DNA from: Streptomyces violaceusniger Tu 4113
GTDB taxonomy: Bacteria > Actinomycetota > Actinomycetes > Streptomycetales > Streptomycetaceae
NCBI RefSeq assembly: GCF_000147815.2
Contig: NC_015957.1
Coordinates: 3,410,001-3,474,000, forward strand
Length of the DNA: 64,000 nucleotides
Reading direction: 5' to 3'
Shown here: positions 5,611 to 38,337 of the stretch, piece by piece
Layout of the letters: every line of letters starts with the position of its first letter
How positions within the stretch are numbered: position 1 is the stretch's first letter
Program-made: the position numbers and the translations under genes
The notes under the pieces: model-generated
What the model saw: only the letters and a program-made list of their open reading frames with translations
What the model was told of the DNA's origin: nothing
Databases searched by the model: none

Positions 5611-6552
5611 GTGAGCCTTCATGTCGTCATAGGATTCGGGCCCGCCGGAGCGGCCACCGCTCGGCTGCTGGCCGAAAAGGGCCATTCGGTACGGGTCGTC
5701 ACCACATCGGGCCGAAGCCCGGAGCCGGGCATCGAGCATGTCGCGCTGGACGCGACGGACAGCGCACGACTGACCGAGGCCGCGCAGGGCGCGGCCGCCA
5801 TCTATAGCTGCGCCGCACCGCCCTACCACCGCTGGGCGAGCGACTGGCCGCCGCTGGCCTCGTCGCTCTGCGCGGCGGCCGAGGCGACCGGGGCCGTCCT
5901 GGTCGTCCTGGGCAACCTCTACGGGTACGGCCCGGTCGACGGCCCCATGACCGAGGAGCTGCCGCTCGCGGCGACCGGCACCAAGGGGCGGGTACGCGCC
6001 GCCGGGTGGGAGCAGGCGCGGGACCTCCATGAGCAAGGCCGGATCAAGGCGGTCGAGGTACGGGCGTCGGACTTCTTCGGGCCCGGAGTGACCGACGGCG
6101 GGCACCTGGCCGCGCGGGTCATGCCAAAGGTGCTGCGCGGCAAGCCGGTCTCCTCGCTCGGGGACCCGGACACCCCGCACAGTTGGAGCTATATCCCCGA
6201 CGTGGCCGCCGCCCTGGCCGAGGTCGCGGGCGAGGAGCGGGCCTGGGGTCGGGCCTGGCACGTACCGACCGCGCCCGCGCGGTCCACCCGGGAGATGGTC
6301 GACCGCCTCGCCACACAGGCGGAAACCGGGCCGGTCGCGGTGCGCAGGCTGCCGTCCGCCGTGCTCGGTCTCGCCTCGCTGGTCTCCCCGCTGCTGCGTG
6401 AACTGAAGGAGGTCCGCTACCAGTTCGACCGTCCCTTCGTCGTGGACGCGAGCGCCTACGAAGCCGCGTTCGCGGTGCGCGCCACCCCCGTCGACGAGCA
6501 GGTCGAGGCGACGGTCGAGTGGTGGCGTGAGCGTCTGTCCACCGCCGGGTGA
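5611..6552 (+). CDS. NAD(P)-binding epimerase/reductase-like protein (extended SDR)
   Basis: A 313-residue Rossmann protein. The N-terminus HVVIGFGPAGAATARLL is the glycine-rich nucleotide-binding turn, and the body matches NAD-dependent epimerase/dehydratase-like proteins (VVLGNLYGYGPVDG, then EVRASDFFGPGV). The classical catalytic YxxxK is not evident, so it may be atypical or non-catalytic. The GTG start lies 145 bp after the amidase. Its stop codon overlaps the GTG of the ketosynthase-AONS fusion (GTGA), so the two are translationally coupled and probably act in one pathway, perhaps reducing or rearranging the amino-ketone that the fusion should release. That role is inferred from the overlap. 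Confidence 0.8.
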   Translation: MSLHVVIGFGPAGAATARLLAEKGHSVRVVTTSGRSPEPGIEHVALDATDSARLTEAAQGAAAIYSCAAPPYHRWASDWPPLASSLCAAAEATGAVLVVLGNLYGYGPVDGPMTEELPLAATGTKGRVRAAGWEQARDLHEQGRIKAVEVRASDFFGPGVTDGGHLAARVMPKVLRGKPVSSLGDPDTPHSWSYIPDVAAALAEVAGEERAWGRAWHVPTAPARSTREMVDRLATQAETGPVAVRRLPSAVLGLASLVSPLLRELKEVRYQFDRPFVVDASAYEAAFAVRATPVDEQVEATVEWWRERLSTAG

Positions 6553-16666: not shown

Positions 16667-16732
16667 CCGGCACCACCGCACACCCGGCACACACCCGGCT
16701 CACACCGGTGCCGCGATTACCTGGTGGGATGT

Positions 16733-16747
16733 TTACCCAACGGGTAA
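16733..16747. promoter_or_regulatory. Inverted repeat upstream of the ATPase/binding-protein pair
   Basis: TTACCC and GGGTAA are separated by 3 bp, within the 139-bp gap before the next operon and about 60 bp before its GTG. It is a candidate operator, in an unusually A/T-rich patch; the binding protein is unknown. Confidence 0.35.
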
Positions 16748-16805
16748 GTTCATGAATGTAGGCGTAGTTGGTACGGATGTCAGCGGCTGATGTCTCGGGG
16801 GAGCG

Positions 16806-18932: not shown

Positions 18933-18938
18933 GGAAGC

Positions 18939-22864: not shown

Positions 22865-25159
22865 ATGTTCGTCCGGCTGGGGCGTTTCGACGTCGCGCGC
22901 AGGGTCTGGGTGCTCGCCGGGGCGGTGCTGGTGCTGGTGGTCTCCTGCTGGGCGTGTTCCGGGCTGTCCGGGCGGCTCAGCTACGGCGGCTTCATGGCAC
23001 CGGCCGCCGAGGCGACCCGGGCGGCGGACGCGATCCGGACCGAGGTGGGGGAGGGCGGCGCGGATGTCCTGGTCACCTTCCGCAGCAAGGAGTTGACCGC
23101 CGCCCGGCCAGCCTTCCGGGAAGCGGTGGAGGACGCGCTGCGCCGGGCGCCCGAGGGCACCGTGGACCGGGCGACGACGGCCTGGTCCTCGGCCAATCCG
23201 CTGCTGGTCTCCCTCGACCAGCACGCGACCGTGGTGCCCATCCTGCTGCAGGGCGACGGGGAGACCGGCCGCACCCAGAGCTATCTGGTGCTGCGGGACA
23301 CCCTGCGCGCACCGGGGTTCGAGGTCACCTGGACCGGGCCGAGCGCCATCATCTCGGAGATCGTCCAGCGCTCCCAACGTGACCTGGTGCGCACCGAGTT
23401 GATGGTGCTGCCGTTGATGACGCTGCTGATGGTGTTCGTCTTCCGGGGCGTGGTCGCCGCACTCCTGCCGGTGGTCACCGGAGTCCTGGCGACGGCCGCG
23501 GCCCTCGCCGCGCTGCGCGCGGTGGCCGATGTCATCGAGGTCCCGTATGTGACGGTCAACCTCGTGGTGGCCATCGGCCTCGCGGCGGGCGTCGACGCCG
23601 GTCTGCTCATCGTCAGCAGATTCCGGGAGGAGCTGCGGGCGGGACGCACTCCGGCGCAGGCCGTCGCCATCACCGTCGACACCGCCGGGCGGACGGTGGC
23701 GCTGTCCGGCGTCGTCATGACCTTCATCGCCGTGGGCCTCGCCTTCTTCCCGCTCGGGTTCGTCCGCGCGCTGGGCATCGGCGCGGCGGCCGGGCTGCTG
23801 GTGGGGGCCCTGGTGACGGTGACGGTGCTGCCCGCGCTGCTGTTCTGCCTGGGCGAGCGGGTGGACGCGCTCTCACCGGCCTGGCTGCGGCGCCAGGGCG
23901 GTCGCCGGGACGGCGCGCTGTGGGGCCGCGTGGCCCGCGCGGTGATGCAGAAGCCCATCGCCTACACCTGCGCCGTCTCCGCGCTGCTGCTCGCCCTCGC
24001 GGTGCCGTTCCTGCACACCGTCATCGGCTTTCCCGACCAGCGCATGCTGCCCGCCGGGGCGCCGGCCCGGGTGGCGGCCGAACGCATGGAACACGACTTC
24101 GCCGTCTCCGGCCTCGGCACGCTGCAGGCCATCGCCACCTTCGACCACCCCGTGGACCGCGGCCGGGGCCACGCCGACCTGCTGACCTGGACGCGGAACG
24201 TCTCCGAACTGCCCGGCGCCCGGGGCGTGCTGGTGGCCGGGACCACCGGGAACAAGGCCGTCATCTACGTCGGCCAGGACCACCGGGTGGAGAGCGACTC
24301 GGCCAAGTCACTGGTACGGGCGGTGCGCGCGCTGCCCGTACCCGGCGGCGGCGGTGTGCTGGTGGGCGGCGCGTCGGCCCTCGCCGTGGACACCATGGAC
24401 ACCTTCTACCGGCTGCTGCCCCGGGTGCTCGCCTTCATGGTGGTCACGAGCTTCGTGCTGCTCACCGTCGCCCTGCGCTCGCTCGTGCTTCCCCTCAAGG
24501 CGCTGGTGATGAACGGCCTGTCCATCGGCGCCTCCTTCGGCGCCCTCACCTGGATCTTCCAGGACGGACACGCCAGCAGGCTGCTCGGAGCCGAACCGAC
24601 GGGCTACGTGGACGCGCTGGCACCCATCGTCATGCTGTTCCTCCTCATCGCCGTGTCCATGGACTACGAGCTGTTCCTGCTGCTGCGCATCCGCGAGCAG
24701 TACCGCCTGCTCGGAGACGACCGGGAGTCGGTGGCGGCGGGGATCGAGCGCTCGGGACGGGTGATCAGCGCCGCCGCGGCGGCCGTTCTGGTGGTGACGG
24801 CCTGCTTCGCGACCAGCAGCGTGGTCATGGTGAAGGAGATCTGCGTCGGTGTCTTCCTGGCGGTGCTGATCGACGCGGTGCTCGTACGGGCGGTGCTGGT
24901 ACCCGCCGTCATGCGGCTGCTCGGCGCGGCGAACTGGTGGTGGCCCGGCTTCTCCTGGGCCTCCGGCAAGTCCGGGAAGTCCCGCTCGGGCAAGGGCGGG
25001 CGGAACTCCAGCGCAGGCAAGGGCGGGCGGAACTCCAGCACAGGCAAGGGCGGGCGGAAATCGCGTACCGGCAAGGGCGGGCGACCGGAGGCCGCCCCGG
25101 AACACGCGGCACGGCTTCCGGCCCCCGCCGAGGCGTCAGCCGAACGTCAGCCGCGCTGA
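22865..25159 (+). CDS. MMPL-family RND exporter with Gly-Lys repeat tail
   Basis: A 764-residue inner-membrane protein of the MmpL/RND class, which exports lipids and lipid-linked metabolites using the proton gradient. Two halves are visible, each with a TM helix, an extracytoplasmic domain and a bundle of TM helices. The conserved segments IGLAAGVDAGLLIVSRFREE and LFLLIAVSMDYELFLLLRIRE carry the intramembrane Asp/Tyr proton-relay residues. The last about 60 residues contain four 9-residue units GKGGRNSSx (27-bp DNA repeats), very basic and probably cytoplasmic. ATG follows AGGGAGGGTGGC. It lies just before a lipid-type PKS cluster, so exporting its product is a natural but unproven role. Confidence 0.9.
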   Translation: MFVRLGRFDVARRVWVLAGAVLVLVVSCWACSGLSGRLSYGGFMAPAAEATRAADAIRTEVGEGGADVLVTFRSKELTAARPAFREAVEDALRRAPEGTVDRATTAWSSANPLLVSLDQHATVVPILLQGDGETGRTQSYLVLRDTLRAPGFEVTWTGPSAIISEIVQRSQRDLVRTELMVLPLMTLLMVFVFRGVVAALLPVVTGVLATAAALAALRAVADVIEVPYVTVNLVVAIGLAAGVDAGLLIVSRFREELRAGRTPAQAVAITVDTAGRTVALSGVVMTFIAVGLAFFPLGFVRALGIGAAAGLLVGALVTVTVLPALLFCLGERVDALSPAWLRRQGGRRDGALWGRVARAVMQKPIAYTCAVSALLLALAVPFLHTVIGFPDQRMLPAGAPARVAAERMEHDFAVSGLGTLQAIATFDHPVDRGRGHADLLTWTRNVSELPGARGVLVAGTTGNKAVIYVGQDHRVESDSAKSLVRAVRALPVPGGGGVLVGGASALAVDTMDTFYRLLPRVLAFMVVTSFVLLTVALRSLVLPLKALVMNGLSIGASFGALTWIFQDGHASRLLGAEPTGYVDALAPIVMLFLLIAVSMDYELFLLLRIREQYRLLGDDRESVAAGIERSGRVISAAAAAVLVVTACFATSSVVMVKEICVGVFLAVLIDAVLVRAVLVPAVMRLLGAANWWWPGFSWASGKSGKSRSGKGGRNSSAGKGGRNSSTGKGGRKSRTGKGGRPEAAPEHAARLPAPAEASAERQPR
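24989..25090. repeat. 27-bp tandem repeat, four copies, in the MMPL gene
   Basis: Units begin GGCAAGGGCGGGCGG at 24989, 25016, 25043 and 25070. They code for GKGGRNSSA, GKGGRNSST, GKGGRKSRT and GKGGRP. The period is an exact multiple of three, so copy number can change without loss of frame. Confidence 0.9.
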
Positions 25160-25732
25160 GCCGCTGCCCGAGCCACCGGCGAGCCTGCCCTGCGTCCAGC
25201 AGTCCCGGCCCACACCGCGGTCGTCCACCGTGATGTCGACGCCCACGGAGCCCGCGAAGAGGCCCCTGGCGATCTGCACGTTCTCGGCCCTGAAGGTGAC
25301 GTTGCCGTCGGCGTCGTTGGTGAAGCGGAGCTTGCCGCCGCCGGTGCTGGTGCCGACCCGCGCACCGCCCGGCCCGATCCACTCCGCCGTGCCCGTGCCG
25401 GTGCCGACGGCCGCGCCGCAGGTGCCCTCGGCCATGCCCTCCAGGGTGACCCGCACCTTGGAGACCACGGCGGAGCCGAGGCAGTTTCCGGTGATGGTGG
25501 CCCGGTAGCCCGCGACACCGCTTTGGTCGCGTACGAGCACCAGGTCGGGGTTGGTGGGTTCCACCGTGGCCGTGCCCTTGCACGTCAACGGCAGCGGAAC
25601 CGCTGGTGCTTCGGCGGCCGCGCGGGCCGGGGGCTGCTGCCCCAGTAAGGCCACGGCGGCCGCCGTGGCCGCCAGCAGCCCCAGGGCCGCCGTATGGACG
25701 AGGGCGCGCCTGCGCCCATTCGCTGAAGTCAC
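25136..25732 (-). CDS. Secreted protein of unknown function
   Basis: A 198-residue protein with a clear signal peptide (RRRALVHTAALGLLAATAAAVALLG, cleavage likely after ARA near residue 39). The mature part is rich in Gly, Thr and Val and has three cysteines (LTCKG, GNCLGS, GTCGAA) plus one in RDCWTQG, suggesting two disulfides and a beta-sandwich-like fold. I do not recognise the family. Codon 29 is TTA (25646-25648), predicting bldA dependence. The last 24 bp overlap the end of the convergent MMPL gene. Confidence 0.75.
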   Translation of the reverse strand: MTSANGRRRALVHTAALGLLAATAAAVALLGQQPPARAAAEAPAVPLPLTCKGTATVEPTNPDLVLVRDQSGVAGYRATITGNCLGSAVVSKVRVTLEGMAEGTCGAAVGTGTGTAEWIGPGGARVGTSTGGGKLRFTNDADGNVTFRAENVQIARGLFAGSVGVDITVDDRGVGRDCWTQGRLAGGSGSGSARLTFG

Positions 25733-25981
25733 GCACTTCTCCCAGGTCGGGCCACACGAAGGGTGGCCGCTTCCGATGATTGATCCGTCCGATGATGGCG
25801 GCCCGGGAAGCCGTGGCCGTTGGTCCGTGCGGGTGATTCACCCGCACGGTCACCAAGGTGTACCCGTTGTCGTGAAGGCGCTCGTCGGCCGCTGACGCGA
25901 TGGCGCCGGGCGGTGACTTGGGCGCCGCCCGGGCGTTGTTCCGGCTGCCGGTCGGTGTCACCGGCGGAGGGGCGGTGGAGG

Positions 25982-27352
25982 ATGACGGGGAAGCTCGAGG
26001 AGCCGACCGGGAAGCCGGTGGGGAAACTGCCGTTTCCGGACGCGGCTCTCGTGGCGTACGGGGAGGCGCATCCCGGTACCGGACTGACCATCGGCGTGGT
26101 GCTGGAGCTGGAGGGCCCTCCTCCCGACCGGCACCAACTCGCCGCCTCGCTGAGGCCGGTGGCGGAACTGCTGGGCACCGGGCCCTCGGACGGCGGCCCG
26201 TGGAGTGGCGCGGACGAGTACGCCGAGGCCGGTCCGGAGCGGGAGCGGGGCCTGTCCGACGTGGCGCATGAGGCGCTGGCCAGACCGCTGGAGCCGCACC
26301 GTTGGTCCTGCTCCACGGTGGCGGGACTGCCGGGTGGCACGTCCGCCCTGGTGTGGCGGGCGGATCACCGGCTGCTCGACGGGGCGGGAGTGGTCGGCGT
26401 ACTGGCCGCCTGGATGGGCGCCCACGGCCCGGACGCTCATGGCCCGGGCGCTCATGGCCCGGGCGCCGATGGCCCGGACGCTCGTGGCCCGGACGCCGCC
26501 ACGGTGTCCCCCGCGCGGGCCGAACCGTGGCGGGCGCGCGGCGCCCCGCACCGTGCCGTCACCGATCCGCTGCGCGCGGCCTGGCTGTGCGGGACACCCC
26601 TGCTGGAGCGGCGCCGGGGGAGCGCGGCGAAAGCCGACGGCGGCCCGCCCGCCACCCTCTCCTACGCCTGCGCGGAGACGGACCTCGCGCTGCTGCGTGG
26701 CATCGCCCGCCGCCACGGCACGACAGTCAACGACGTATACCTGGCCGCGCTGAGCGGGGCGCTGCGCACCCGGCCCGGACTCCACGGCCCCGACGGGCAG
26801 ATGCGCGCCCTGGTCCCGGTGAACGTCCGGGGCCCGGGGGACGCGGCCGTGCTGCGGAACCGCCACATCCCGCTCCGTATCCCGCTCCCCGTGGCGGAGC
26901 CCGACGCCGGACGGCGCCTCGCCCTGGTCGCCGCCCGCACGGCGGGCCGGGCCCGCGCCCTGCGCCATCCGCTGGTGCGCGCGGTGTTCCGGTCCGTCCC
27001 CGCCGCGGCCGGGGGATGGTGTTTCGAGCGGTACTTCGACCCGGCCCGCGCCACCCTGCTCGCCAGCAATGTGCGGGGCCCCTCGTCCCCGCTGGAAGTT
27101 GCCGGGCGGCGAGTCCGGCGCATGCTGCCACTGAACTTCCTCCCGGCCGGACACCGCCTGTCCAGCGTCCTGGCCACCGCCCAGGACCAGGCCGTGGCCG
27201 GCTTCACCACCACCGACCCCCGCCGGGCCGCCGAGTCGTTCGCCGCCGCCTGGCTGGGGGAGTTGCGGGTGCTCGCCGCGACCGGGCCGTCGGGGAGGGG
27301 TCAGGCGGCCGGTGCGGGTGCGACCGCTTCTCCGGCGGCGTCGGCGAGGTAG
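25982..27352 (+). CDS. WS/DGAT-like (wax ester synthase type) acyltransferase
   Basis: A 456-residue acyltransferase of the condensation-domain superfamily. The active-site motif reads DHRLLDG (about residue 127): the catalytic second His and the Asp-Gly of HHxxxDG are kept while the first His is Asp. The C-terminal half matches WS_DGAT_C (RALVPVNVRGPGD, RNRHIPLRIPLPV, LLASNVRGPSSPLEVAGRRV). Family members transfer acyl chains from CoA or carrier to alcohols or diacylglycerol. ATG at 25982 follows GGAGG; the frame is open upstream but looks non-coding. Five AHGPG-like units (26420-26494) are inserted after the active site. The C-terminus runs into a copy of the reductase 3' end. It may esterify the PKS product. 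Confidence 0.82.
   Translation: MTGKLEEPTGKPVGKLPFPDAALVAYGEAHPGTGLTIGVVLELEGPPPDRHQLAASLRPVAELLGTGPSDGGPWSGADEYAEAGPERERGLSDVAHEALARPLEPHRWSCSTVAGLPGGTSALVWRADHRLLDGAGVVGVLAAWMGAHGPDAHGPGAHGPGADGPDARGPDAATVSPARAEPWRARGAPHRAVTDPLRAAWLCGTPLLERRRGSAAKADGGPPATLSYACAETDLALLRGIARRHGTTVNDVYLAALSGALRTRPGLHGPDGQMRALVPVNVRGPGDAAVLRNRHIPLRIPLPVAEPDAGRRLALVAARTAGRARALRHPLVRAVFRSVPAAAGGWCFERYFDPARATLLASNVRGPSSPLEVAGRRVRRMLPLNFLPAGHRLSSVLATAQDQAVAGFTTTDPRRAAESFAAAWLGELRVLAATGPSGRGQAAGAGATASPAASAR
26420..26494. repeat. 15-bp tandem repeat, five copies, in the acyltransferase gene
   Basis: Five 15-bp units code for AHGPD, AHGPG, AHGPG, ADGPD and ARGPD. The insert falls in a loop after the active-site His motif and keeps the reading frame. 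Confidence 0.9.
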
Positions 27353-27780
27353 GTGGCGTCCAGGGGCTTGGGGTCGGGCAGGCCCGCCGTGTCGTGGAGC
27401 AAGTTGCTCCGGTGGTACGTCCCGGGCTTGGCTTCACCGCCTCCGCGCCCCGGCGGGCTGCCGGGTCGTGGGGGACTGGTCAGGCTGCCGGGACGAGTGC
27501 CACTGCCTCTCCGGCCGCGTCGGCGGGGTAGGTGGCGTCCAGGAGTTTGGGGTCGGGGGTCAGTCGGTATCGTGGAGCAGCGTTGGCTTCACCGCCCCCG
27601 CCCCCGCCCCCGCGCCCCGCCGGGCCGCCGAGTTGTGGGGGTGGGTTCAGGCGGCCGGTGCGGGTGCGACCGCCTCTCCAGTCGCGTCGGCGAGGTAGGC
27701 GGCGTCAAGGGGTTTGGGGTCCGGCAGGTCCGCCGCGTCCTGGAGCAGGTTGCTCCGGTCATACGTCCTGCGTTGTGCGG
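27199..27780. repeat. Triplicated junction of convergent genes (about 170-bp units)
   Basis: The 3' end of the reductase gene occurs three times. Minus-strand stops lie at 27301, 27480 and 27647, each preceded by codons for a version of PLDATYLADAAGEAV. The copy at 27301 keeps about 40 residues in frame (from TYHRSNLLHD), the middle copy about 27 with an internal deletion, and the copy at 27647 is the live gene. Between them lie degraded copies of the acyltransferase 3' end (GGCTTCACC...GGGCCGCCGAG, as at 27200-27240). So the whole tail-to-tail junction was tandemly triplicated. No other gene is seen at 27353-27646. Confidence 0.85.
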
Positions 27781-28804
27781 TGAAGACCAGCAGCGAGGCC
27801 AGGTGGTGCGCGAACAGCGACTCGTATGAATCCGGGTCGTCCAGGTCGTCCACGAGGTCCAGGGACAGCCCCGGGTACAGCCGCTCCAGGACCTTCACGG
27901 CCGTCGCGAAGGGCGTGTTGTGCGGATGGGTCAGGTGCACCGTGCGCACCCCCGCTGTGGCGCCCGGACGGGCCGCCGCCGCCCGCGCGGCGCACACCGC
28001 CGCGTGGGCCGCGTACTCCACCGGGACCAGGTTGAGCGCCCCGCCGCCCCCCGCGCGGACCCGCACCCGCAGACCGCTGCCGTGGGCGTCGCCACCGTCG
28101 AGGAGGGAGGCGAGCGCCGGGTCGTCCTCGGCCCTGCGGCGCAGCGCCTCGTGGAGGAGGAACGCCAGCACCGCCAGCGGCTGGCGTTGCCCGCTGCCGT
28201 GGACGGGCCGGTCGGAGACGAGCAGCGACGGCCGCAGGATCGTGGCGCCCCGGCCGGTGCGGGCGCTCCAGGCGTGCACCGCGCGTTCGGCGGTGTACTT
28301 GCTCTCCTCGTACGGCGTCAGGAAGCCGTGGCCGCCGTCCAGGTCGACCTCGCGGATATGCCCCTCGGCGCGTCCCCCGGCGACGTACGCCGTGCTCAGG
28401 TGGACGACCCGCGCCCCGGCCGCCTCGGTGGCCAGGTCGAGGACGCGTCGGGTGCCGAGGACGTTCGCCTTGAAGAGCGGCACCGGGTCGTCGTGCAGTG
28501 CGAGGTGCGCGGCACAGTGCCAGACCACCGAGCACGCGTCGGTGAGGGCGCGGCGGTCGTCGTCGGTCAGGCCGAGGCCGGGCAGGGTGAGGTCGGCGGA
28601 CACGTACCGCAGGCGCCCGCGCGGCGTCGCGGCGCCCGCCAGGCCGTCGAGCCCGTCGAGGGCCGTCTCGATCCGCGCCCGCAGACTCTCTTCCCCGCCC
28701 CGGCCGAGGACGGTGACGGGCCGGTCGTCGCCGTCCTCGGCGAGCAGGTGGCGCAGGATGCGGCTGCCGAGGAAACCGGTCGCGCCGGTGAAGAGTACGG
28801 CCAT
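27647..28804 (-). CDS. Thioester-reductase-like SDR (NAD(P)-dependent)
   Basis: A 385-residue extended SDR of the kind that forms reductase (R) domains of NRPS/PKS and carboxylic acid reductases. The nucleotide loop is TGATGFLGSRILRHLL at the N-terminus and the catalytic YxxxK is in TPYEESKYTAERA (about residue 163). STAYVAGG supplies the Ser/Thr. Free-standing relatives reduce carrier- or CoA-bound acyl chains to aldehyde or alcohol. Because the adjacent PKS lacks a thioesterase, this is the likeliest release enzyme, and an alcohol product would suit the WS/DGAT-like acyltransferase. The ATG at 28804 follows CTGGAG. The C-terminal 40 codons are duplicated downstream. It diverges from the PKS gene. 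Confidence 0.85.
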   Translation of the reverse strand: MAVLFTGATGFLGSRILRHLLAEDGDDRPVTVLGRGGEESLRARIETALDGLDGLAGAATPRGRLRYVSADLTLPGLGLTDDDRRALTDACSVVWHCAAHLALHDDPVPLFKANVLGTRRVLDLATEAAGARVVHLSTAYVAGGRAEGHIREVDLDGGHGFLTPYEESKYTAERAVHAWSARTGRGATILRPSLLVSDRPVHGSGQRQPLAVLAFLLHEALRRRAEDDPALASLLDGGDAHGSGLRVRVRAGGGGALNLVPVEYAAHAAVCAARAAAARPGATAGVRTVHLTHPHNTPFATAVKVLERLYPGLSLDLVDDLDDPDSYESLFAHHLASLLVFTAQRRTYDRSNLLQDAADLPDPKPLDAAYLADATGEAVAPAPAA

Positions 28805-29278
28805 GGCGGGCTCCAGACGTCGAAGGGCGGGTGAGCGGGTGAGCGGGTGAGGGGCATGGGGATCCGGCGGCGCGAACCGGCAGCGGATCCGAGGGCCAGG
28901 CGATCCGGTGGCGAATCCCACCGCGCCGGGACCGCACGGGGACCGCGCCGGGTCCGCGCCGGGACCGCCGCCGGGGCGCGTGCCGAGGACACCACACCGA
29001 CCGCACCCCGCCGCGCCGCCCGGCCCGCCGTACGCACGCTCTGTACACGCGCTCTGTACACGCGCTCTGTACGGGCCCCGTCGACGCACATCACCCGAAT
29101 GGGCTAAGCGGCCCGGGCCGGCTCCGTTCACCTCACCGAGTGCACTTCGCCGCCGTTCCCTCCAACGGGTGTACAGGCGGCCTCGGCGGTGGCCCGTCTG
29201 GCCTAGTGTGCGTCGCTGCCGAGAGCGTGACGCGGGCTTCCCGCCGGTGTCGCGAAGTGACTGGAGAAAGGCCCCGGT
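28805..29278. promoter_or_regulatory. Divergent promoter region of the reductase and PKS genes
   Basis: No gene is seen in these 474 bp. An 8-bp GGGTGAGC repeat (28828-28853) lies next to the reductase start. Three 13-bp repeats lie in the middle (29037-29075). A Shine-Dalgarno GGAGAAAGG precedes the PKS ATG. The region should hold promoters in both directions and probably a shared regulator site. Confidence 0.55.
29037..29075. promoter_or_regulatory. Three 13-bp direct repeats, candidate activator/repressor sites
   Basis: CGCTCTGTACACG occurs at 29037 and 29050 and in the form CGCTCTGTACGGG at 29063. Each copy contains a TGTAC core; two contain the palindrome TGTACA. The array is about 200 bp upstream of the PKS start, between divergent genes, which suits a cluster-specific regulator. 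Confidence 0.5.
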
Positions 29279-32200
29279 ATGCGTCAGGACGAGGCCGAAC
29301 CGATCGCGGTGGTGGGGGCGGCCTGCCGGCTTCCCGGCGGCATCCGGGACCTGGACGGGCTCTGGGAGGCCCTGGAGCAGGGCAGGGACCTGGTGGGGGA
29401 GGTGCCCGCGGACCGGTTCGACGCCCGCCTGTTCACCGACCCCGCCGTGCCGCGCCGGGGCAAGTCGTACACCGCGGCCGGTGGGTTCCTCGACGACGTG
29501 GCCGGGTTCGACGCCGCCTACTTCGGGATCTCCCCCAAGGAAGCGGCCCACATGGACCCCCAGCACCGGCTGCTGCTGGAGATGACCGCCGAGGCGCTGG
29601 ACGACGCCGCCGTGGACCCCGCCACGCTGGCCGGTTCGGACACCGCGGTCTTCGTCGGCATCTCCGACGCCTCCTACGGCGCGCTCCAGATGTCCGCGCT
29701 GCGCACGGTGGGCGCCTACACCATGTCGGGCGCCGCCTCGTCGATCGCCGCCAACCGGGTCTCGCACGCCTTCGATCTGCGTGGCCCCAGCATGGCGATC
29801 GACACCGCGTGCTCCTCCTCCCTCGTGGCCCTGGACCGCGCCTGCCGCACCCTGTGGGAGGGCGGTGGCCGGGCCGCCGTCTGCGGCGGGGTCAATGTGC
29901 TGCTCAGCCCGTTCCACTACGTGGGGTTCTCGCAGGCGTCGATGCTCTCCCGGCGGGGCCGGTGCGCCTCCTTCTCGGCACAGGCGGACGGGTTCGTACG
30001 GGCCGAGGGTGGCGGCGTGGTGCTGCTGAAACGGCTGTCGGACGCCGTGGCCGACGGCGACCGGATCCACGGACTCGTCCTGGGCACCGGCAGCAACAGC
30101 GACGGCAGGACCATGGGTCTTGCGCTGCCCAGCCCCGAGGCGCAGGAACGGCTGCTGCGCGAGGTCTACGACCGCGCCCGGGTGCACCCCGACGAGCTGG
30201 TGTACTTCGAGGCGCACGGCACCGGCACCCCGGTCGGCGACCCGCTGGAGGCCCTCGCCATCGGCCGGGCTCTCGGCGTACGCCGGATCTCCGGCGCCCT
30301 CCCGCTCGGCTCGGTGAAGACCAACCTCGGCCATCTGGAGCCGGCGTCCGGCATGGCCGGTCTGCTCAAGGCCCTCCTGGTGCTGCGGCACCGCACCGCA
30401 CCGGCCTCCCTCCACGCCGAACCGCCGCACCCCGACATCGACTTCGAGGGCCTCGGACTGCGGCTCACCACCCGGTCCACGGCCCTCGCCCCCGCCACGA
30501 CCGGCGGGCGCGCCGTCGCCGGGGTCAACTCCTTCGGCTTCGGCGGCGCCAACGCCCACGCCATCGTGGCCGACCCCCCGCCCGCGCCGGACCGCCCGCG
30601 CCCCCCGCGCTCACCGGTGCCCCTGCTCGTCTCGGCCCGCACCGCCAAGGCCCTGTCGGAGGCGGCCGAGGCCACGGCCGCCCACCTGGACGAAACGACC
30701 CCCGCCGACTTCTACGACCTGGCCCACACCTCCTGCCTCCGCCGTGGCCGCCACGAACACCGCGCCGTCGTCTGGGCCACCACGCCTGAGGAAGCGGCAC
30801 ACGCACTGCGCGCCTTGACGGCACCGGAGCCCGAGCCGGGGCCGCATGGTGTCGGCGGTTCCGGTGGTGAGGTGGCCGCGCCCACTGGGGAGTCGGCCTC
30901 GCCGACCGCGGAGCCGTCCGCGCCCGCCGGAGAATCGGCCGCGCCCGGCGGGGAGCCGTCCGCGCCCGGCGGGGAGTTGGCCGTGCACGCCGGGGAGTCG
31001 GTCGCATCCGGCGGGGTGCCGATTGCCCTCGCGGGGGAGCCGGTCGTGCCGATCGGTGAGTCGGTCACGCCCGGCGGGGAGTCGGCAGTGCCGATCGGTG
31101 GGACTGTCGCGTCCATCGGGGAGTCGGTTGCGCCCGGCGGGAAGCGGATGGCGCCCACCGGCGAGCCGACCGCGCCCGGCGGCAAACCCACCGCCCGCAC
31201 CCCCGCGCCGGCCGCCCCCGGTGCGGTGAGCGCGGCCGCCGAAAGTGGGCGGGTCGCCTTCGTGTTCTGTGGGAACGGCTCGCAGTGGGCGGGCATGGGG
31301 GCGGACCTCTTCGACGCCGATGCCGTCTTTCGGCGCGCGGTGTGCGAGGCCGACACCGAGCTCGCGCCCCGTCTGGGCTGGTCGGTGGCCGATCGCCTCA
31401 CCGCGCACGCCGGGGAGGCGGACCTGGCCGCGACGGAGGTGGCCCAGCCCCTCCTGTTCGCCGTGCAGTTGGGCATCACCGCGGTGCTGCGCGCCCGGGG
31501 CATCGAGCCCGCCATGGTCGTCGGCCACAGCGTCGGGGAGGTGGCCGCCGCCCACACGTGCGGAGCGCTGTCCCTGCCGGACGCGGCGCGGGTGATCGCC
31601 GAACGCGGCCGGGTGCAGGGGACCACGGCCGGCAGTGGCCGGATGGCCGCCGTCGGGCTGTCCGCCGACCGGGCCGCGAAGGCCCTCGCCGGGTACGGGG
31701 AGAAGCTGGAGCTCGCCGGTGTCAACAGCGCCGAGGACGTCACGGTGGCCGGTGAGACCGAGGCCCTCAACCTGCTCGGCGCGGAACTCGCCGCCGAGGG
31801 CGTCTTCTTCCGCGATCTGGGCCTCGACTACGCCTTCCACAGTCGCCACATGGACCCCACGGAGGACGAACTCCGTGCTGGCTTGGCCGACATGACGCCG
31901 TCGCCGGTCCGGGTGCCGTTCTACTCGACGGTCACCGGCTTCCGCGCCCGTGGCACCGATCTGGACGCGGCGTACTGGTGGCAGAACGTGCGCCGCCCGG
32001 TGCTCTTCGCGGACGCGGTGCGGCGCGCCCTCGCGGACGGGGCCGGCGTCCTCCTGGAGATCGGGCCCCATCCCGTCCTGCGCGCCTACCTCCGGCGCGT
32101 CGCGTCCCGGCGCGGAAAGACCGGCATCGGGAGGGGCATTGGAACCGGTATCGGCACCGGCACCGGCACCGGCAACACTGTCGTTCTGCCCACCCTGCGC

Positions 32201-35200
32201 CGCGGGGCGGACGGCCCCGCCGCTCTCGGCGCGGCGGTGGCCGGTGCGCTCGCGGCCGGGGCCGCGGCCGATCTCACCCGGCACTTCCCGGTGCCGGGCC
32301 GGGTCACCCGGCTCCCCGCCTACCCATGGCAGTACGAGCGCCACTGGTCCGGCACCCCCCGCTCCTGGGCCAACTCCAGCGGGGACGGCGTCATCGTCCA
32401 CCCCCTGCTCGGCGAGCGCATGCCCACCGCCGTCCCCAGTTGGGAGGGCGCGATCGAGCCCGTCCTCGTGCCCTGGCTCGCCGACCACCGGCTGGGCGGA
32501 TCGGTCGTCATGCCGGCCACCGGATACGCCGAAGCGCTTCTCGCCGCGGGGCGCGCCGTGCACGGACGGCCGGTGGAGGTGGCACACCTCGACGTCAGCG
32601 CCAGCCTCGTGGTGCCGTGGGCGGACGCCTCCGCCGTACGGCTGCGGGTCGGCCTCGACCCCGACACCACGCTCGCCACGGTCACCAGCACCGACGAGCG
32701 CGGCCCGGAGCCACGGGCGCACGCGCGGGCCCGGGTGCGCCCGCTGCTGAGCCCCCGGCCCGAGCCGGTCGACCCGGAGCGTCTGCGCGCCCGGTGCGCG
32801 ACGCGCGTCAGCGGCGAGGAACACTACGCCGCCTGCGCCGAGGTGGGGCTCGTCTACGGGCCCGCGTTCCGGATGCTCGACGAGGTGCGCCTGGGGGCGC
32901 GGACCTCGGTCGCCACCTACCGGCACGAGACCCCCGGCAGCGCCCCGTACACCGCGCATCCGGCGCTGCTCGACGGAGCCCTCCAGACCGGTGTCGCCCT
33001 CCTCTACGACCGGCTGCGGGAGCGGGGCGCCTATCTGCCCGCGTCCATCGGCGCGGTGCGGGTGTGGTCGGCGCCGTCGCCCACCGGGATCATGTGGGTC
33101 ACCGAACGCGACGCCACCGACAGCGAGGTCTGCTGGGACATCACCGTCGCGGACGCCGACGGCACCGTCACGGCCCGCCTGGAGGAGTGCCGGCTGCGCC
33201 TCTTCCCGATCGCCCGCACCACCCCCGTCACCCTCCACCACACCGTTCCGCGGGCCGCTCCCCGCGCCCACCTCCCGGCCGCGCCCTCACCCCTGCCGCC
33301 CCCCGAGGCCATCCTCCGGGACGCCGCCCCGCGCCTGGACGCCGTACGGGAGCGGTGGCGCGAAGCCCGGTACGACCTGACCTCGCGTCATGACGAGGAG
33401 CTGACCGCGCGCTCGGCCGCCGCCGCGCTGGCCCGGCTGCTGCCCGACCCCGCCGCGCCGTTCACCGCCGACGCCCTCGTGGCGGCCGGTATGGAGGAGC
33501 GGCACCGCCCCCTGATCGCCCTGCTCGAACCCCTGCTGCTGCGCCGCGGTCTGCTCACCGAGACCCCCGGCGGCCGGTGCCTGACGCCCGACGCCCGCCA
33601 CACCCCGCCGCCGGTGCGCGAGGCCCTCGTCCGGGCACCCGGGGATGTGCACCGGATCGCCCTGGCGACACACCTGACCCGGCACCTGGCGGACGTCCTC
33701 ACCGGCCGCGCGAGCGCCCTGGCACTGCTCAGCGCCGAATCGGCCGGGCACCTCCTGGAGCAGTACTACGACACCGCGCCGATCTCCGGCTTCCACAACC
33801 GCCTCGCGCAGGCCCTGCTCCGCGCCCTGCTGGCCCACTGGCCCGCCGACCGCGCCCTGCGCGTCCTGGAGATCGGCGCCGGCACCGGCGGCATGACCGC
33901 GGCGCTGCTGCCCCTGCTGCCCGCCGACCGCACCCGCTACCGCTACACCGATGTCTCACCGGCCTGTCCGGCCCGCGCCCGCAACCGCTTCGGCGACTAC
34001 GACTTCGTCGAGTACGGCACCTTCGACCTGGACCGGGACCTCGCCGAACAGGGCTACCACCCACAGGGCTTCGACCTCGTCGTCGCCGCCAACGCGCTGC
34101 ACACGGCCAAGGACCTGGAGCCCGCCCTCGGCCGCGTGGCCTCGCTCCTCGCGCCCGGCGGACACCTGCTGGCCTTCGAATGCCACGAGCCGGAGATCCT
34201 GCTCCCCGTCTTCGGCGCCCTCGACAGTTTCCACCACCGCACCGACACCGGCCTGCGGCCCGGCTCCCCGCTGCTGGCCCGTGAGCAGTGGCCCGCGCTC
34301 CTGCGCCGGTGCGGCTTCACCTCCTGCGCCCGCACCGGCGACACCGCGCCGCCCGGACGCGACCACGCCTCCGTCTTCCTCGCCGCGGCCGGTGGCGCCC
34401 CCGCCCCCGCCGCCGCACCGCCACCCCCCGCCCCGTCCGCCGCGTACATCGTCTGCGGCGACACGGCCGACGACCCACTGCCCCACGCCGTCACCGAGGC
34501 GCTGACCGCACACGGCGCCGGGCACAGCGTCGTCACCGACGCCCACACCGACGCCGCCGCGTGGACCCGGGCGCTGACCGGGGCGGGCACCGGCGAGACG
34601 ACCGTCGTCCTGATCCTGGGCGGCGCCGAACCCGACGACGCCGAGGAGGCCGTCGCCCGCGCCACCCACGCCGGCCAGACGCTGCGGGCCGTCGCGGAGG
34701 CACACCGGTCCCTCGCTTCGCCCGCCGGGGTCCGGCTGTGGCTCGTCACCCGGCCGCACGGCGCCGAGGCCACCCCCGGACCGATCACCCACCCGACCGA
34801 CGCCGCCGCCTGGGGCGTGGCACGCTGCCTGGCCAACGAGGAACCCGATCTGCGCGGGCGCCGCCTGAGCCTGTGCCGGGGCGACGACCCGGCCGCGGAC
34901 GCCGCCCGGCTGGTCCGCGAACTGCTCGACACCGAGGCCCCCGACGCCCCCGATACCGCCGACGACGAGGACGAGATCGTGCTCACCGCACACGACCGCT
35001 TCGTCCCGCGCGAGCACGCCCTGCCGCCCGCCGTCCCCCTCGCCAACGGCGCGGCCCCGCCGCCGTTCGCCCTGCGGGTGCGGAGGCCCGGCCTCTCCTA
35101 CCGCCTCGCCTGGCAGGAGATCCCCCCACCGGTCGCGGGTCCCGGGGAGGTGGTCGTCGAGGTGCGCGCGGCTTCCCTGAACTACCGGGACATCATGCAG

Positions 35201-37405
35201 ACGGTCGGGCTGCTGCCCACGGAGGCGCTGGCCGGCAGCCCCCGCGAGGAGAACCTCGGCCTCGAATGCGCGGGCGTGGTCACCGCCTGCGGGCCCGGCG
35301 TGGACCGCTTCGCGCCCGGGGACCGGGTCGTCGGGCTGCTGACCGGGGCGCTCTCGTCCCAGGTGGTCAGCCCGGCCCGCAACCTGTGGCCGATGCCCGC
35401 GGGAGTCACCTTCGCGGAGGCCGCGAGCGTGCCCGTCGCCCTGTGCACCGTCCACTACAGCCTGCTGTACACCGCCCGGATGCGGGCGGGGGAGACCGTG
35501 CTCGTGCACGGCGCGGCCGGTGGCGTCGGTCTCGCGGCCCTCCATTACGCACGGGCGCACGGCGCCACGGTCATCGCCACGGCGGGCAGCGAGCCCAAAC
35601 GCGACCTGCTGCGCGCACTCGGTGTGGCACACGTCCTCGACTCACGCTCGCTGGACTTCACCGTCCAGGTCATGGATCTCACCGGGGGCAGGGGAGTGGA
35701 CATCGTCCTCAACTCCCTCTCCGGACAGGCCCTGGCGCGGGGCCTGGAGGTGCTTCGCCCCGGCGGCCGCTTCATCGAACTCGGCAAGCGCGACTTCTAC
35801 GAGGACCGGACCCTGCCGCTGCGCCCCTTCGGCTCCCATATCTCCTTCCACGGCGTGGATCTGACCACCGTGCTGCGCGACCCCCGGCTGCTGGGAGACC
35901 TCCTGGAGGACGTGGGACGGACCCTGGGGGACGGCCAGGCGTCGGAGAAGGGCCCGGAGTTCCAGCCGCTGCCGCACACCGTCTTCCCCGCCGCACGCGT
36001 GGCGGACGCCTTCGTGCTGATGCGCCACTCACGTCACATCGGCAAGGTCGTCGTCACGTTCGACCCGCTGGACGAGCCCTGCGCCGTCGAACCAGCCTCC
36101 TGGTCCGCTTCTCCACCCGCGCGTAGGACGCCCAACGCGCCCCGCGCACCCCGCCTCGACCCGGACGCCTCCTATCTGGTCACGGGCGGCACCAGCGGCT
36201 TCGGCGCGGCCACCGCACAGTGGCTCGCCGGGCTCGGCGCCCGGCATCTCGCCCTCGTGAGCCGCAGCGGGGACCGCGGTCCGGAGGCCGCCGCCGTACG
36301 CGACGCGCTCGCCCCGGACGGGGTGCGGGTCACCGCGTACGCCGCGGACGCCGCCGACGCGGAGGCGATGCGCCGGGTGCTGAAGGACGTCGAGGAGAAC
36401 GGGCATCCGCTGCGGGGTGTGGTCCACGCGGCCATGGCACTGGACGACGCGCCCCTCGCCGAGCTGACCGCCGAGCGGATGAGCGCCGTCCTGCGGCCCA
36501 AGATCGCCGGGGCCCACGTTCTGGACACCCTGACCCGCGGGCGTCCGCTGGACTTCTTCCTGTGCTACTCCTCCACGACCGCCATGGTGGGCAACTTCAA
36601 GCAGTCGGCCTATACGGCGGGCAACCTCTACCTGGAGGGCCTGGCCCGGCTGCGCCGCAGGCACGGCGAAGCGGCGCTCACCCTCGCCTGGGGAGCCATC
36701 GACGAGATCGGCTACGCGGCCCGCAACGACCTGCTCGACTCCCTCCACGGCCTGGGCATCGAGCCCCTCGCCCCCCACACCGCCCTCGACCACGGCCGAC
36801 GGCTGCTCGGCGACGACCGGCCGGACGCCCCCGCGGTGGTGGGCGTCTCCCGGACGGACTGGTCGCGCGCCGCCGTTCTGCTGCCCCTGCTGCGCGCCCC
36901 GCGCCTCGGCGACCTCGTACCGCCCCAGGTGGGGGACGGGGAGGCCACCCGCGAGGAACTCCTGCGCCGGCTCTCCCTCATGGACGAGGAGACCGCCCTC
37001 GCCCACCTCGTGGACCAGCTCACCCGCCTGCTCGCGCAGGTCCTGCAGATGGACCACGAGGCACTCGACCCGCACCGGCGCCTGGACTCCTACGGCATGG
37101 ACTCCCTGATGGCCGCTCAGGTGCTCGTCTCGCTCAACCAGCGCTACGAAATCGACATCCCGCCCATGGAACTGCTGCGCAGCAACGGCACCATCGCCGA
37201 ATTCGCCAGGATCGTGCAGCTCCGGCTGGGACTGCAGGTCACCGCTCCCCCCGACGCCCCACCGGGTCCCGGGAGCACCGGCCCCGGCATCCCCGGCCCC
37301 GGCATCCCCGGCCCCGCAACGGCATCCCCCGTGCTGCCCGGGCCGCTGCCCGTCCCGGCCCAGGCCGGACCGGACCGCTCGCCCACGGCAGGCGAGGCGC
37401 GGTGA
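29279..37405 (+). CDS. Highly reducing type I PKS: KS-AT-DH-cMT-ER-KR-ACP
   Basis: A complete 2708-residue single-module synthase. KS about 6-430 (DTACSSS, EAHGTGT, KTNLGHLEPASG); AT about 657-944 (GHSVGE; YAFHS, a malonyl-like variant); DH about 1039-1310 (HRLGGSVVMP, HPALLDGALQT); C-methyltransferase about 1364-1705 (LEIGAGTGGMTAALLP); ER about 1929-2262 (VLVHGAAGGVGLAALHYA); KR about 2297-2534 (VTGGTSGFGAA, Tyr in SAYTAGN); ACP about 2572-2650 (GMDSLM). All expected active-site residues are present. The domain order is that of fungal highly reducing PKSs and suggests an iterative enzyme making a methyl-branched, saturated chain. There is no thioesterase. Three low-complexity inserts lie at 30866-31201, about 32123-32178 and 37274-37316. 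ATG follows GGAGAAAGG. The diiron oxygenase gene overlaps its stop. Confidence 0.95.
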   Translation: MRQDEAEPIAVVGAACRLPGGIRDLDGLWEALEQGRDLVGEVPADRFDARLFTDPAVPRRGKSYTAAGGFLDDVAGFDAAYFGISPKEAAHMDPQHRLLLEMTAEALDDAAVDPATLAGSDTAVFVGISDASYGALQMSALRTVGAYTMSGAASSIAANRVSHAFDLRGPSMAIDTACSSSLVALDRACRTLWEGGGRAAVCGGVNVLLSPFHYVGFSQASMLSRRGRCASFSAQADGFVRAEGGGVVLLKRLSDAVADGDRIHGLVLGTGSNSDGRTMGLALPSPEAQERLLREVYDRARVHPDELVYFEAHGTGTPVGDPLEALAIGRALGVRRISGALPLGSVKTNLGHLEPASGMAGLLKALLVLRHRTAPASLHAEPPHPDIDFEGLGLRLTTRSTALAPATTGGRAVAGVNSFGFGGANAHAIVADPPPAPDRPRPPRSPVPLLVSARTAKALSEAAEATAAHLDETTPADFYDLAHTSCLRRGRHEHRAVVWATTPEEAAHALRALTAPEPEPGPHGVGGSGGEVAAPTGESASPTAEPSAPAGESAAPGGEPSAPGGELAVHAGESVASGGVPIALAGEPVVPIGESVTPGGESAVPIGGTVASIGESVAPGGKRMAPTGEPTAPGGKPTARTPAPAAPGAVSAAAESGRVAFVFCGNGSQWAGMGADLFDADAVFRRAVCEADTELAPRLGWSVADRLTAHAGEADLAATEVAQPLLFAVQLGITAVLRARGIEPAMVVGHSVGEVAAAHTCGALSLPDAARVIAERGRVQGTTAGSGRMAAVGLSADRAAKALAGYGEKLELAGVNSAEDVTVAGETEALNLLGAELAAEGVFFRDLGLDYAFHSRHMDPTEDELRAGLADMTPSPVRVPFYSTVTGFRARGTDLDAAYWWQNVRRPVLFADAVRRALADGAGVLLEIGPHPVLRAYLRRVASRRGKTGIGRGIGTGIGTGTGTGNTVVLPTLRRGADGPAALGAAVAGALAAGAAADLTRHFPVPGRVTRLPAYPWQYERHWSGTPRSWANSSGDGVIVHPLLGERMPTAVPSWEGAIEPVLVPWLADHRLGGSVVMPATGYAEALLAAGRAVHGRPVEVAHLDVSASLVVPWADASAVRLRVGLDPDTTLATVTSTDERGPEPRAHARARVRPLLSPRPEPVDPERLRARCATRVSGEEHYAACAEVGLVYGPAFRMLDEVRLGARTSVATYRHETPGSAPYTAHPALLDGALQTGVALLYDRLRERGAYLPASIGAVRVWSAPSPTGIMWVTERDATDSEVCWDITVADADGTVTARLEECRLRLFPIARTTPVTLHHTVPRAAPRAHLPAAPSPLPPPEAILRDAAPRLDAVRERWREARYDLTSRHDEELTARSAAAALARLLPDPAAPFTADALVAAGMEERHRPLIALLEPLLLRRGLLTETPGGRCLTPDARHTPPPVREALVRAPGDVHRIALATHLTRHLADVLTGRASALALLSAESAGHLLEQYYDTAPISGFHNRLAQALLRALLAHWPADRALRVLEIGAGTGGMTAALLPLLPADRTRYRYTDVSPACPARARNRFGDYDFVEYGTFDLDRDLAEQGYHPQGFDLVVAANALHTAKDLEPALGRVASLLAPGGHLLAFECHEPEILLPVFGALDSFHHRTDTGLRPGSPLLAREQWPALLRRCGFTSCARTGDTAPPGRDHASVFLAAAGGAPAPAAAPPPPAPSAAYIVCGDTADDPLPHAVTEALTAHGAGHSVVTDAHTDAAAWTRALTGAGTGETTVVLILGGAEPDDAEEAVARATHAGQTLRAVAEAHRSLASPAGVRLWLVTRPHGAEATPGPITHPTDAAAWGVARCLANEEPDLRGRRLSLCRGDDPAADAARLVRELLDTEAPDAPDTADDEDEIVLTAHDRFVPREHALPPAVPLANGAAPPPFALRVRRPGLSYRLAWQEIPPPVAGPGEVVVEVRAASLNYRDIMQTVGLLPTEALAGSPREENLGLECAGVVTACGPGVDRFAPGDRVVGLLTGALSSQVVSPARNLWPMPAGVTFAEAASVPVALCTVHYSLLYTARMRAGETVLVHGAAGGVGLAALHYARAHGATVIATAGSEPKRDLLRALGVAHVLDSRSLDFTVQVMDLTGGRGVDIVLNSLSGQALARGLEVLRPGGRFIELGKRDFYEDRTLPLRPFGSHISFHGVDLTTVLRDPRLLGDLLEDVGRTLGDGQASEKGPEFQPLPHTVFPAARVADAFVLMRHSRHIGKVVVTFDPLDEPCAVEPASWSASPPARRTPNAPRAPRLDPDASYLVTGGTSGFGAATAQWLAGLGARHLALVSRSGDRGPEAAAVRDALAPDGVRVTAYAADAADAEAMRRVLKDVEENGHPLRGVVHAAMALDDAPLAELTAERMSAVLRPKIAGAHVLDTLTRGRPLDFFLCYSSTTAMVGNFKQSAYTAGNLYLEGLARLRRRHGEAALTLAWGAIDEIGYAARNDLLDSLHGLGIEPLAPHTALDHGRRLLGDDRPDAPAVVGVSRTDWSRAAVLLPLLRAPRLGDLVPPQVGDGEATREELLRRLSLMDEETALAHLVDQLTRLLAQVLQMDHEALDPHRRLDSYGMDSLMAAQVLVSLNQRYEIDIPPMELLRSNGTIAEFARIVQLRLGLQVTAPPDAPPGPGSTGPGIPGPGIPGPATASPVLPGPLPVPAQAGPDRSPTAGEAR
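30866..31201. repeat. 21-bp minisatellite, 16 copies, in the PKS KS-AT linker
   Basis: Exactly 336 bp code for sixteen 7-residue units of the type GESVAPG, GEPSAPG, GESVTPG or GKPTART (residues 530-641). The units differ in 1 to 5 residues, so the array is old and still in frame. It sits between the KS-AT linker and the acyltransferase and should form a flexible acidic Pro/Gly spacer. Confidence 0.92.
32123..32178. repeat. Gly-Ile/Gly-Thr coding repeat after the PKS acyltransferase
   Basis: Short GGCATCGG/GGCACC-type repeats code for GIGRGIGTGIGTGTGTG, inserted in the linker right after the acyltransferase. It is in frame and probably an unstructured loop. Confidence 0.8.
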
Positions 37406-38337
37406 GCGCACCACAGCCGCCGGGTCGGTCCGCGCCCGCCCCGACGGGCACGCCACGCCAGACACCGGCCGAGGTGGCCGGACGCCTGCTGCGCACCGCG
37501 GCCAAGCACACCTACGACCCGGCCCTCGCCATCGACTGGAACGCCCCGCCCGAGCCCGGTCACTGGTATCTCCAGCCGGAGCGGATGTCGCTGTACGCCA
37601 CCCCCACCTGGCACCGGCTGAGCGAGGAGCGGCGCCTCGCGCTCTCCCGCAGCGAGTGGGCCAACATGATCAGCATGGCCACCTGGTTCGAGCTGACCTT
37701 GATGCAGATGCTCACCGGCTATCTGACCGCCCGCGACCCGGCGTCGCCACGCACCCACTACGCGCTGAGCGAAGTGGCCGACGAGACGCGCCACGTCGCC
37801 ATGTTCGGCCGGGCCCTCGGCACCCTCGGCTGCCCGGTCCACCGACCGCCCGCCCTCGTCCGGCATCTGGGCCGGGCGGTGCTCCCGCGGTTGCGCGGCG
37901 CGAGCCTGTTCGCGGCCGCCCTGCTGATCGAGGAGGTCTACGACCGCTTCCAGCGGGAGGCCATGGGCGACGAGCGGGTGCAGCCCCTCGTACGGCAGGT
38001 GTCGCGCCTGCACGTGATGGAGGAGTCACGGCACATCCGCTTCGCCCACTCCGAACTCCTGGACGCCCGGCGCGGCAGGTCGGGTGCCGTCCTGGAGTTC
38101 CACCGGCAACTGACCGCCTGGTGCGCGATGCTGGCCATGACCACGTACACCAACGCCCCGATCTACCGCGCCGTGGGCCTCGACCCGCGCCGCGCCGCCC
38201 GCGAGGCCCGCGCGAATCCGCACTTCCGGCGGACCATGCGCTGGGCGGGCGAGCGCCTCGTCGCCTTCCTCACCGACGCCGGAATGATCACCGGGCTCCA
38301 GCGCCCGCTATGGCGCCGGAGCCTGCTGCTGGGCTGA
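37402..38337 (+). CDS. AurF-like diiron oxygenase
   Basis: A 311-residue helical protein of the p-aminobenzoate N-oxygenase (AurF, PF11583-type) family. Carboxylate/His ligands occur in the expected order: MATWFELTLMQ, ADETRHVAMF, LIEEVYDRFQRE and MEESRHIRFAHSE. AurF and CmlI oxidise arylamines to nitro groups, but PKS- and lipid-associated relatives have other or unknown oxidations. Here the gene starts with GTG overlapping the PKS stop (GTGA), so it is translationally coupled and should oxidise the PKS product or its carrier-bound intermediate. An N-terminal Pro-rich stretch of about 20 residues precedes the domain. Its stop codon is the first base triplet of a 21-bp tandem repeat. Confidence 0.85.
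   Translation: MSAPQPPGRSAPAPTGTPRQTPAEVAGRLLRTAAKHTYDPALAIDWNAPPEPGHWYLQPERMSLYATPTWHRLSEERRLALSRSEWANMISMATWFELTLMQMLTGYLTARDPASPRTHYALSEVADETRHVAMFGRALGTLGCPVHRPPALVRHLGRAVLPRLRGASLFAAALLIEEVYDRFQREAMGDERVQPLVRQVSRLHVMEESRHIRFAHSELLDARRGRSGAVLEFHRQLTAWCAMLAMTTYTNAPIYRAVGLDPRRAAREARANPHFRRTMRWAGERLVAFLTDAGMITGLQRPLWRRSLLLG

Follow-up and report, generated by a model that had tools for sequence, protein, structure and literature searches.

Do the adjoining genes at positions 22865-38337 of a 64,000 nt stretch of the Streptomyces violaceusniger Tu 4113 genome (NC_015957.1, positions 3,410,001 to 3,474,000; the whole stretch is called the window here, and the genome is 11.1 Mb) belong to one pathway, and what might it make? 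An initial annotation had placed five genes in this block: an MMPL-family exporter, an acyltransferase resembling wax ester synthase/diacylglycerol acyltransferase (WS/DGAT), a stand-alone short-chain dehydrogenase/reductase (SDR) of thioester-reductase type, a polyketide synthase (PKS) and an AurF-like diiron protein. All five were found to be present and intact. Sequence comparison makes it probable, although far from certain, that the block is a single biosynthetic cluster for an exported methyl-branched lipid, in which the PKS would build the chain, the AurF-type protein oxidise it, the SDR release it, the WS/DGAT-like enzyme form an ester and the MMPL protein export the product.

The MMPL gene (22865-25159, + strand, 764 aa) is followed by the WS/DGAT-like gene (25982-27352, +, 456 aa), the SDR gene (27647-28804, −, 385 aa), the PKS gene (29279-37405, +, 2708 aa) and the AurF-type gene (37402-38337, +, 311 aa), the last two overlapping by 4 bp. 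The initial annotation had the five gene types right and omitted a sixth gene between MMPL and WS/DGAT (25136-25732, −, GTG start), which overlaps the 3′ end of the MMPL gene; its product is a secreted orphan of 198 aa that matches no family. The whole block and both flanks also occur in two further genomes (G164 and G383) of the 392 Streptomyces genomes sampled, with protein identities to the window of 83-97%. Against these two orthologous loci the five named genes have ratios of nonsynonymous to synonymous substitution rates (dN/dS) of 0.15-0.32, so that all five are under purifying selection and maintained. The secreted orphan protein, present in both orthologous loci, is under purifying selection as well (dN/dS 0.13-0.16), but comparison with the other loci revealed no family to which it belongs.

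The PKS consists of one module with the order ketosynthase (KS), acyltransferase (AT), dehydratase (DH), methyltransferase (MT), enoylreductase (ER), ketoreductase (KR) and acyl carrier protein (ACP). Every catalytic motif tested in these seven domains is intact and the family scan reported no thioesterase (TE) domain, making it a highly reducing methylating PKS without a thioesterase. From the single complete module and the absence of any other PKS in the block, we infer that the module is used iteratively. Its nearest relatives come from Streptomyces of the violaceusniger group (S. violaceusniger, S. sp. 11-1-2, S. yatensis and S. malaysiensis), and the PKS type is common: 1290 proteins matched its DH-MT-ER part at E≤0.001 (7980 scored candidates, 120 listed). 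A 21-bp repeat array at 30874-31194 codes for a low-complexity linker between KS and AT. The SDR is transcribed divergently from the PKS and matches PF07993 (NAD_binding_4) at 129.6 bits (cut-off 20.1), with the motifs TGATGFLG, STAY and YEESK kept; plus-strand open reading frame models at its site had no family match and were rejected in favour of the minus-strand gene. Within the 474 bp between the two divergent starts (28805-29278) lie three tandem copies of a 13-bp unit (CGCTCTGTACACG) at 29037-29072, represented in the relatives by two partly degenerate copies, and the approximately 190 bp adjoining the PKS start (29088-29278) are nearly invariant across three genomes.

To what extent these genes travel together was examined from the SDR, using as query 27653-28804, one residue shorter than the gene. 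Relatives at E≤1e-30 were found in 55 of the 392 genomes, giving 56 matches outside the window clade. We compared 33 of the best 34 matches, from 31 genomes, after excluding a match with one internal stop in G257 before counting; the 22 lower matches lay outside the comparison. The stretches mostly extended about 10 kb to each side (contig ends shorten those of G120, G212:C254 and G376), and neighbours were labelled by tblastn and all-against-all comparison. The SDR is adjoined by the same PKS type in 15 of the 33 loci, by KASII in 8, by another PKS in 9 and by neither in 1. An MMPL gene lies within 10 kb of the SDR in 10 loci, a 56-bit match at the edge of the G118 stretch (L160) being left out of this count, and a WS/DGAT gene in 6 by Pfam or 8 when the BLAST-only cases of G036 and G154 are added. 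Pfam background counts for 22 of the 31 genomes (24 loci), excluding the nine genomes of the other-PKS type, gave 27 WS/DGAT and 443 MMPL matches, from which 0.07 WS/DGAT and at most 1.2 MMPL genes would be expected near the 24 SDR loci by chance, or 0.10 and 1.65 when scaled to 33 loci. Co-location of MMPL and WS/DGAT with these SDR loci is thus far above chance. The nine other-PKS loci (L174-L176, L178-L180 and L184-L186) have KS and AT matches of about 27-37% identity and were taken to be modular.

Among the 15 PKS loci, identities of PKS and SDR to those of the window co-vary (rho 0.85), and the divergent SDR/PKS layout is found in seven of the eight closest and in none of the seven more distant. 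In G162, WS/DGAT, PKS and SDR are co-directional, with a 4-bp overlap between the gene models of the first two. In three genomes with KASII (G061, G376 and G322) the MMPL gene adjoins KASII, SDR and WS/DGAT, with an ACP called in two of the three. The co-occurrence of the five genes that the initial annotation proposed to check was therefore borne out for PKS, SDR, WS/DGAT and MMPL, which recur in divergent loci; the AurF-type gene did not follow them, as described below.

The WS/DGAT-like protein scores above the cut-offs of both family domains (PF03007, 30.7 bits against 23.6; PF06974, 37.1 against 20.7) and is the sole match to either at E≤0.001 in its own genome. Its active-site motif is DHRLLDG, compared with the family's HHxxxDG, so that the second His and the Asp-Gly are kept and the first His is replaced by Asp; it is a low-scoring, divergent member of the family. 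In a tree it joins the WS/DGAT protein of a PKS locus in G051 (support 93/87), a grouping for which the program flags a possible long-branch effect. The MMPL protein has two PF03176 stretches (246.7 bits against 20.5), and a 27-bp tandem repeat was noted at the 3′ end of its gene. In the MMPL tree, a branch supported at 100/99 separates 17 cluster-linked proteins (from the window clade, the PKS type, the KASII type and the AurF cassettes described below) from 20 other MMPLs of the same genome set, seven of which come from the window's genome. This supports placing the window MMPL in a clade that holds, within this non-exhaustive sample, only MMPLs of such lipid loci.

The AurF-type protein matches PF11583 at 273.4 bits (cut-off 29.6) and carries the motifs DExxH (DETRH, residues 127-131) and HxxEExxH (HVMEESRH, 204-211). 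Searching the PDB by sequence retrieved no AurF or CmlI entry (the single match at E≤1 was to an unrelated chain, E 0.39), so we turned to fold comparison, by which the protein has the AurF/CmlI fold and its nearest solved folds are amine oxygenases; an aldehyde-deformylating oxygenase was a weak Foldseek match (rank 50, E 0.05). Relatives at E≤1e-40 occur in 376 of the 392 genomes, the matches listed being mostly of about 40-45% identity, and we take these to represent a common gene of the genus. Matches at E<1e-100 are confined to three genomes, including the window's own. The window protein falls in a clade of 14 rows (support 100/98), six of them without known gene context, together with cassette AurFs and that of G025 and apart from the common genus AurFs. 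Across 49 aligned AurF rows, the first motif is DExxH in 45 and EExxH in four, and HxxEExxH is present in all 49. One apparent AurF-PKS fusion (P0037, 223 aa, a PKS start and an AurF end) is likely an assembly artefact and was set aside; some AurF matches in other genomes are surrounded by long open frames, and the portion of these that was compared contained no PKS fusion.

AurF neighbourhoods were compared in eight of the nine genomes that score highest after the window clade, G031 being left out. Four of the eight (G336, G036, G048 and G264) contain a cassette of KASII-ACP-KASIII and MMPL-AurF with another SDR adjoining, whose AurF is related to that of the window and whose MMPL belongs to the same clade as the window MMPL. 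These cassettes (L022, L023, L030 and L033) occur in S. rimosus and three other Streptomyces; the contigs of G336 and G048 match Streptomyces sp. CB02923 and S. rimosus NRRL WC-3904, respectively. G025 has KASII and KASIII near AurF without an MMPL, and no cassette-type neighbours of AurF were found in G288, G153 and G002, except for an MMPL about 13 kb away in G153. Among the best 80 of 583 AurF loci from named genomes, two are the same cassettes, Streptosporangium canum has KASIII adjoining AurF, and in the remainder no cluster gene accompanies AurF apart from isolated distant matches, for example one to WS/DGAT at 29% in L076.

What the comparison establishes is that the genes exist and are intact, that PKS or KASII is repeatedly associated with SDR, WS/DGAT and MMPL, and that AurF is repeatedly associated with MMPL; from this we infer the following reactions and product. 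Iteration of the single PKS module would yield a saturated chain, as its intact domains suggest, with methyl branches derived from S-adenosylmethionine through the PKS's own methyltransferase. Because the PKS lacks a thioesterase, release is assigned to the SDR, which, judging from its family and its conserved pairing with the PKS, would deliver an aldehyde or a primary alcohol. The AurF-type protein may oxidise the acyl chain while it is carrier-bound, more likely on carbon than on nitrogen; this is the weakest step. Carbon is preferred because family scans recognised no aminotransferase or other amine-forming enzyme among the genes of the block, and also because a KS-AONS protein encoded upstream (see below) has no counterpart in the other loci, within stretches that often extend only 10 kb, and the motif of related halogenases is absent. 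The WS/DGAT-like enzyme would then esterify the alcohol or a hydroxyl, and the MMPL protein would export the product. That these genes recur together across loci supports the view that the enzymes for release and acyl transfer, and the exporter, work with the chain builder.

Several observations weigh against this pathway. The SDR scores 111.2 bits against the thioester reductase model TIGR01746, under its cut-off of 213.35, and the WS/DGAT-like protein 131.6 bits against TIGR02946, far under 309.95. Asp-Tyr pairs in transmembrane helices (TM) 4 and 10 of MMPL proteins have a functional role; the window MMPL keeps the pair in TM10, and in TM4 the window clade alone has DA in place of DY, the Tyr being kept in 34 of 34 other aligned MMPLs. 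Given this loss and the DH for HH in the WS/DGAT-like protein, both proteins may work differently from their relatives. The locus-linked WS/DGAT proteins form two lineages or more. Long-branch warnings attach to the MMPL tree, in which the branch of the window clade (1.42) is among the longest, and its 20 comparison proteins were chosen for high Pfam scores away from known loci, without regard to their neighbourhoods. MMPL and WS/DGAT accompany the SDR in only 10 and only six to eight of the 33 loci, AurF accompanies it in none of the 33 outside the window clade, and no locus examined outside that clade has all five genes together. The association of an AurF-type gene with this PKS, which the initial annotation had made part of the cluster, is therefore limited to the window clade. 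As the flanks are conserved in G164 and G383 too, these two loci are silent on the limits of the cluster.

An alternative that we regard as unlikely is that the block is a chance assembly, in which PKS, SDR and AurF share a pathway while MMPL and WS/DGAT serve other pathways. The absence of MMPL and of WS/DGAT from more than half of the SDR loci would fit this, as would the opposite-strand gene that parts MMPL from WS/DGAT in the window; it is difficult to reconcile with co-location so far above expectation and with the single clade of linked MMPLs. About equally doubtful is an AurF-type protein that acts on nitrogen. At 6549-10034 (+) the window encodes a KS fused to an 8-amino-7-oxononanoate synthase-like part (KS-AONS; BioF/serine-palmitoyltransferase-like, without an AT, as assigned from family domains), preceded by an SDR gene (5611-6552, +) that overlaps it by 4 bp. 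This protein could link an amino acid to the PKS chain, and the AurF-type protein would then N-oxidise the resulting amino-ketone lipid. It lies 13 kb upstream of the MMPL gene, is kept in both orthologous loci and has, by eye, an ACP-like stretch between KS and AONS (with no ACP family match), and amine oxygenases are the nearest solved folds of the AurF-type protein. However, nine gene models of other kinds separate KS-AONS from MMPL, and the AONS part is absent from the other SDR loci and from the KAS cassettes, although stretches of about 10 kb would often miss a gene 19 kb away. LitN, an AurF-like protein of the Streptomyces lipothrenin pathway, reportedly acts on an amide nitrogen (PMC10616846); it indicates that AurF-like proteins can serve Streptomyces lipid pathways and speaks somewhat against oxidation on carbon.

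Two further proposals concern the AurF-type protein, beginning with a hydrocarbon product. Cyanobacteria pair an acyl-ACP reductase with an aldehyde-deformylating oxygenase, and the enzyme types here, a reductive SDR and a ferritin-like diiron protein, would match such a pair, which could cut the aldehyde to a branched hydrocarbon; the weak Foldseek match points the same way. We think this very improbable, because the fold is nearer to CmlI and AurF, the KAS cassettes have AurF without this SDR while the 33 SDR loci have this SDR without AurF, and the WS/DGAT-like enzyme would be left with no alcohol. Least probable of all is that the AurF-type protein is a dimetal halogenase and chlorinates the chain on its ACP. 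CylC-type enzymes, which are AurF-like, have ACP-bound fatty acyl chains as substrates, and the window gene does sit with chain builders, but the motifs QExxH and HxxDExxH published for such halogenases (PMC12101540) are absent from the window protein. A halogenase identity was rejected on this motif, with QExxH in none of the 49 AurF rows.

Returning to the exported lipid that we favour, the question of whether it is made in mycobacterial style has a divided answer. The logic fits. Membership does not: the PKS has its own C-methyltransferase, it scores far under the cut-offs of the NCBIfam mycobacterial PKS models, the MMPL protein reaches 311.2 bits against the MmpL3 model NF052608 (cut-off 1400), and the related loci examined are Streptomyces clusters. 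In mycobacteria, the phthiocerol dimycocerosate (PDIM) locus encodes Mas, PapA5 and MmpL7, its methyl branches being introduced by PKSs without MT, and uses an acyl-AMP ligase. As in PDIM loci, an iterative chain builder, an acyltransferase of the HHxxxDG family and a dedicated MMPL are encoded together; unlike them, the window has an in-PKS MT, release would be reductive, an AurF-type oxidase is added, and no acyl-AMP ligase was found among the family matches of the block genes. Fungal highly reducing PKSs share with the window PKS the single module, the DH-MT-ER-KR order and the lack of a TE. The iterative PKS for lagunapyrone in Streptomyces MP131-18 is likened to fungal PKSs and has a single module; it lacks ER and MT and has a type III PKS as partner (PMC5301196). 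What sets the window PKS apart from both is its pairing with an exporter and a stand-alone SDR of thioester-reductase type. Sponge symbionts carry swf clusters, which resemble the window in having a mono-modular PKS followed by a thioester-reductase gene, but SwfA lacks an MT, the reductase is fused to a sulphotransferase, and the available part of the source mentions no MMPL or WS/DGAT (PMC3908369).

The tailoring enzymes also have known counterparts. The WS/DGAT-like protein resembles bacterial wax ester and triacylglycerol synthases in its two Pfam domains, second His and Asp-Gly, and differs from them in its TIGR02946 score and first residue of the motif. The AurF-type protein has 12-16% identity to the arylamine N-oxygenases AurF and CmlI and, unlike these, is encoded beside acyl-chain builders. 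Like CylC and NocO it may act on ACP-bound acyl chains, but it has DExxH and HxxEExxH where they have QExxH and HxxDExxH (PMC12101540). The initial annotation had called the combination with a diiron enzyme undescribed, and we likewise found no description of it among the open-licence PubMed Central papers listed by our searches (including passages of PMC12101540, PMC8406957, PMC10616846, PMC3908369 and PMC5301196).

Mycobacteria provide the best-known examples of clusters dedicated to the assembly and export of lipids. We tentatively suggest, as a broader idea that is less secure than the pathway itself, that Streptomyces may have an unrecognised superfamily of exported-lipid clusters with one dedicated MMPL clade, a swappable chain builder (a highly reducing type I PKS, or KASII and ACP with or without KASIII), swappable tailoring by a reductive SDR, a divergent WS/DGAT and an AurF-fold oxidase, and an AurF clade that oxidises carbon of carrier-bound acyl chains. 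We know of no PF11583 protein of this type to which such carbon oxidation has been assigned. If the suggestion is true, and such clusters with an MMPL clade of their own recur in Streptomyces, then these soil bacteria would export methyl-branched lipids that have yet to be described. Comparing loci in which one component has been swapped for another would help to assign a role to each enzyme, and whether a diiron enzyme can act on acyl chains could be tested on the AurF clade.

Gene models beyond the block were taken from a simple coding-score script. The flank on one side contains amidase, NACHT, AAA and methyltransferase genes, kinds foreign to the block, and the other a HAMP/Cache sensor, a Mur-ligase-like protein, a peroxidase and a symporter. 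Scans for sigma-70 promoters, Rfam families and tRNAs gave no match. The NACHT protein (13448-16666, +) has an NNH1 N-terminal domain and weak leucine-rich-repeat matches. Genes for an AAA protein (16806-18932) and a periplasmic-binding-like protein (18939-20528) come next, and the run as a whole (13448-20528) resembles NLR-type defence genes.

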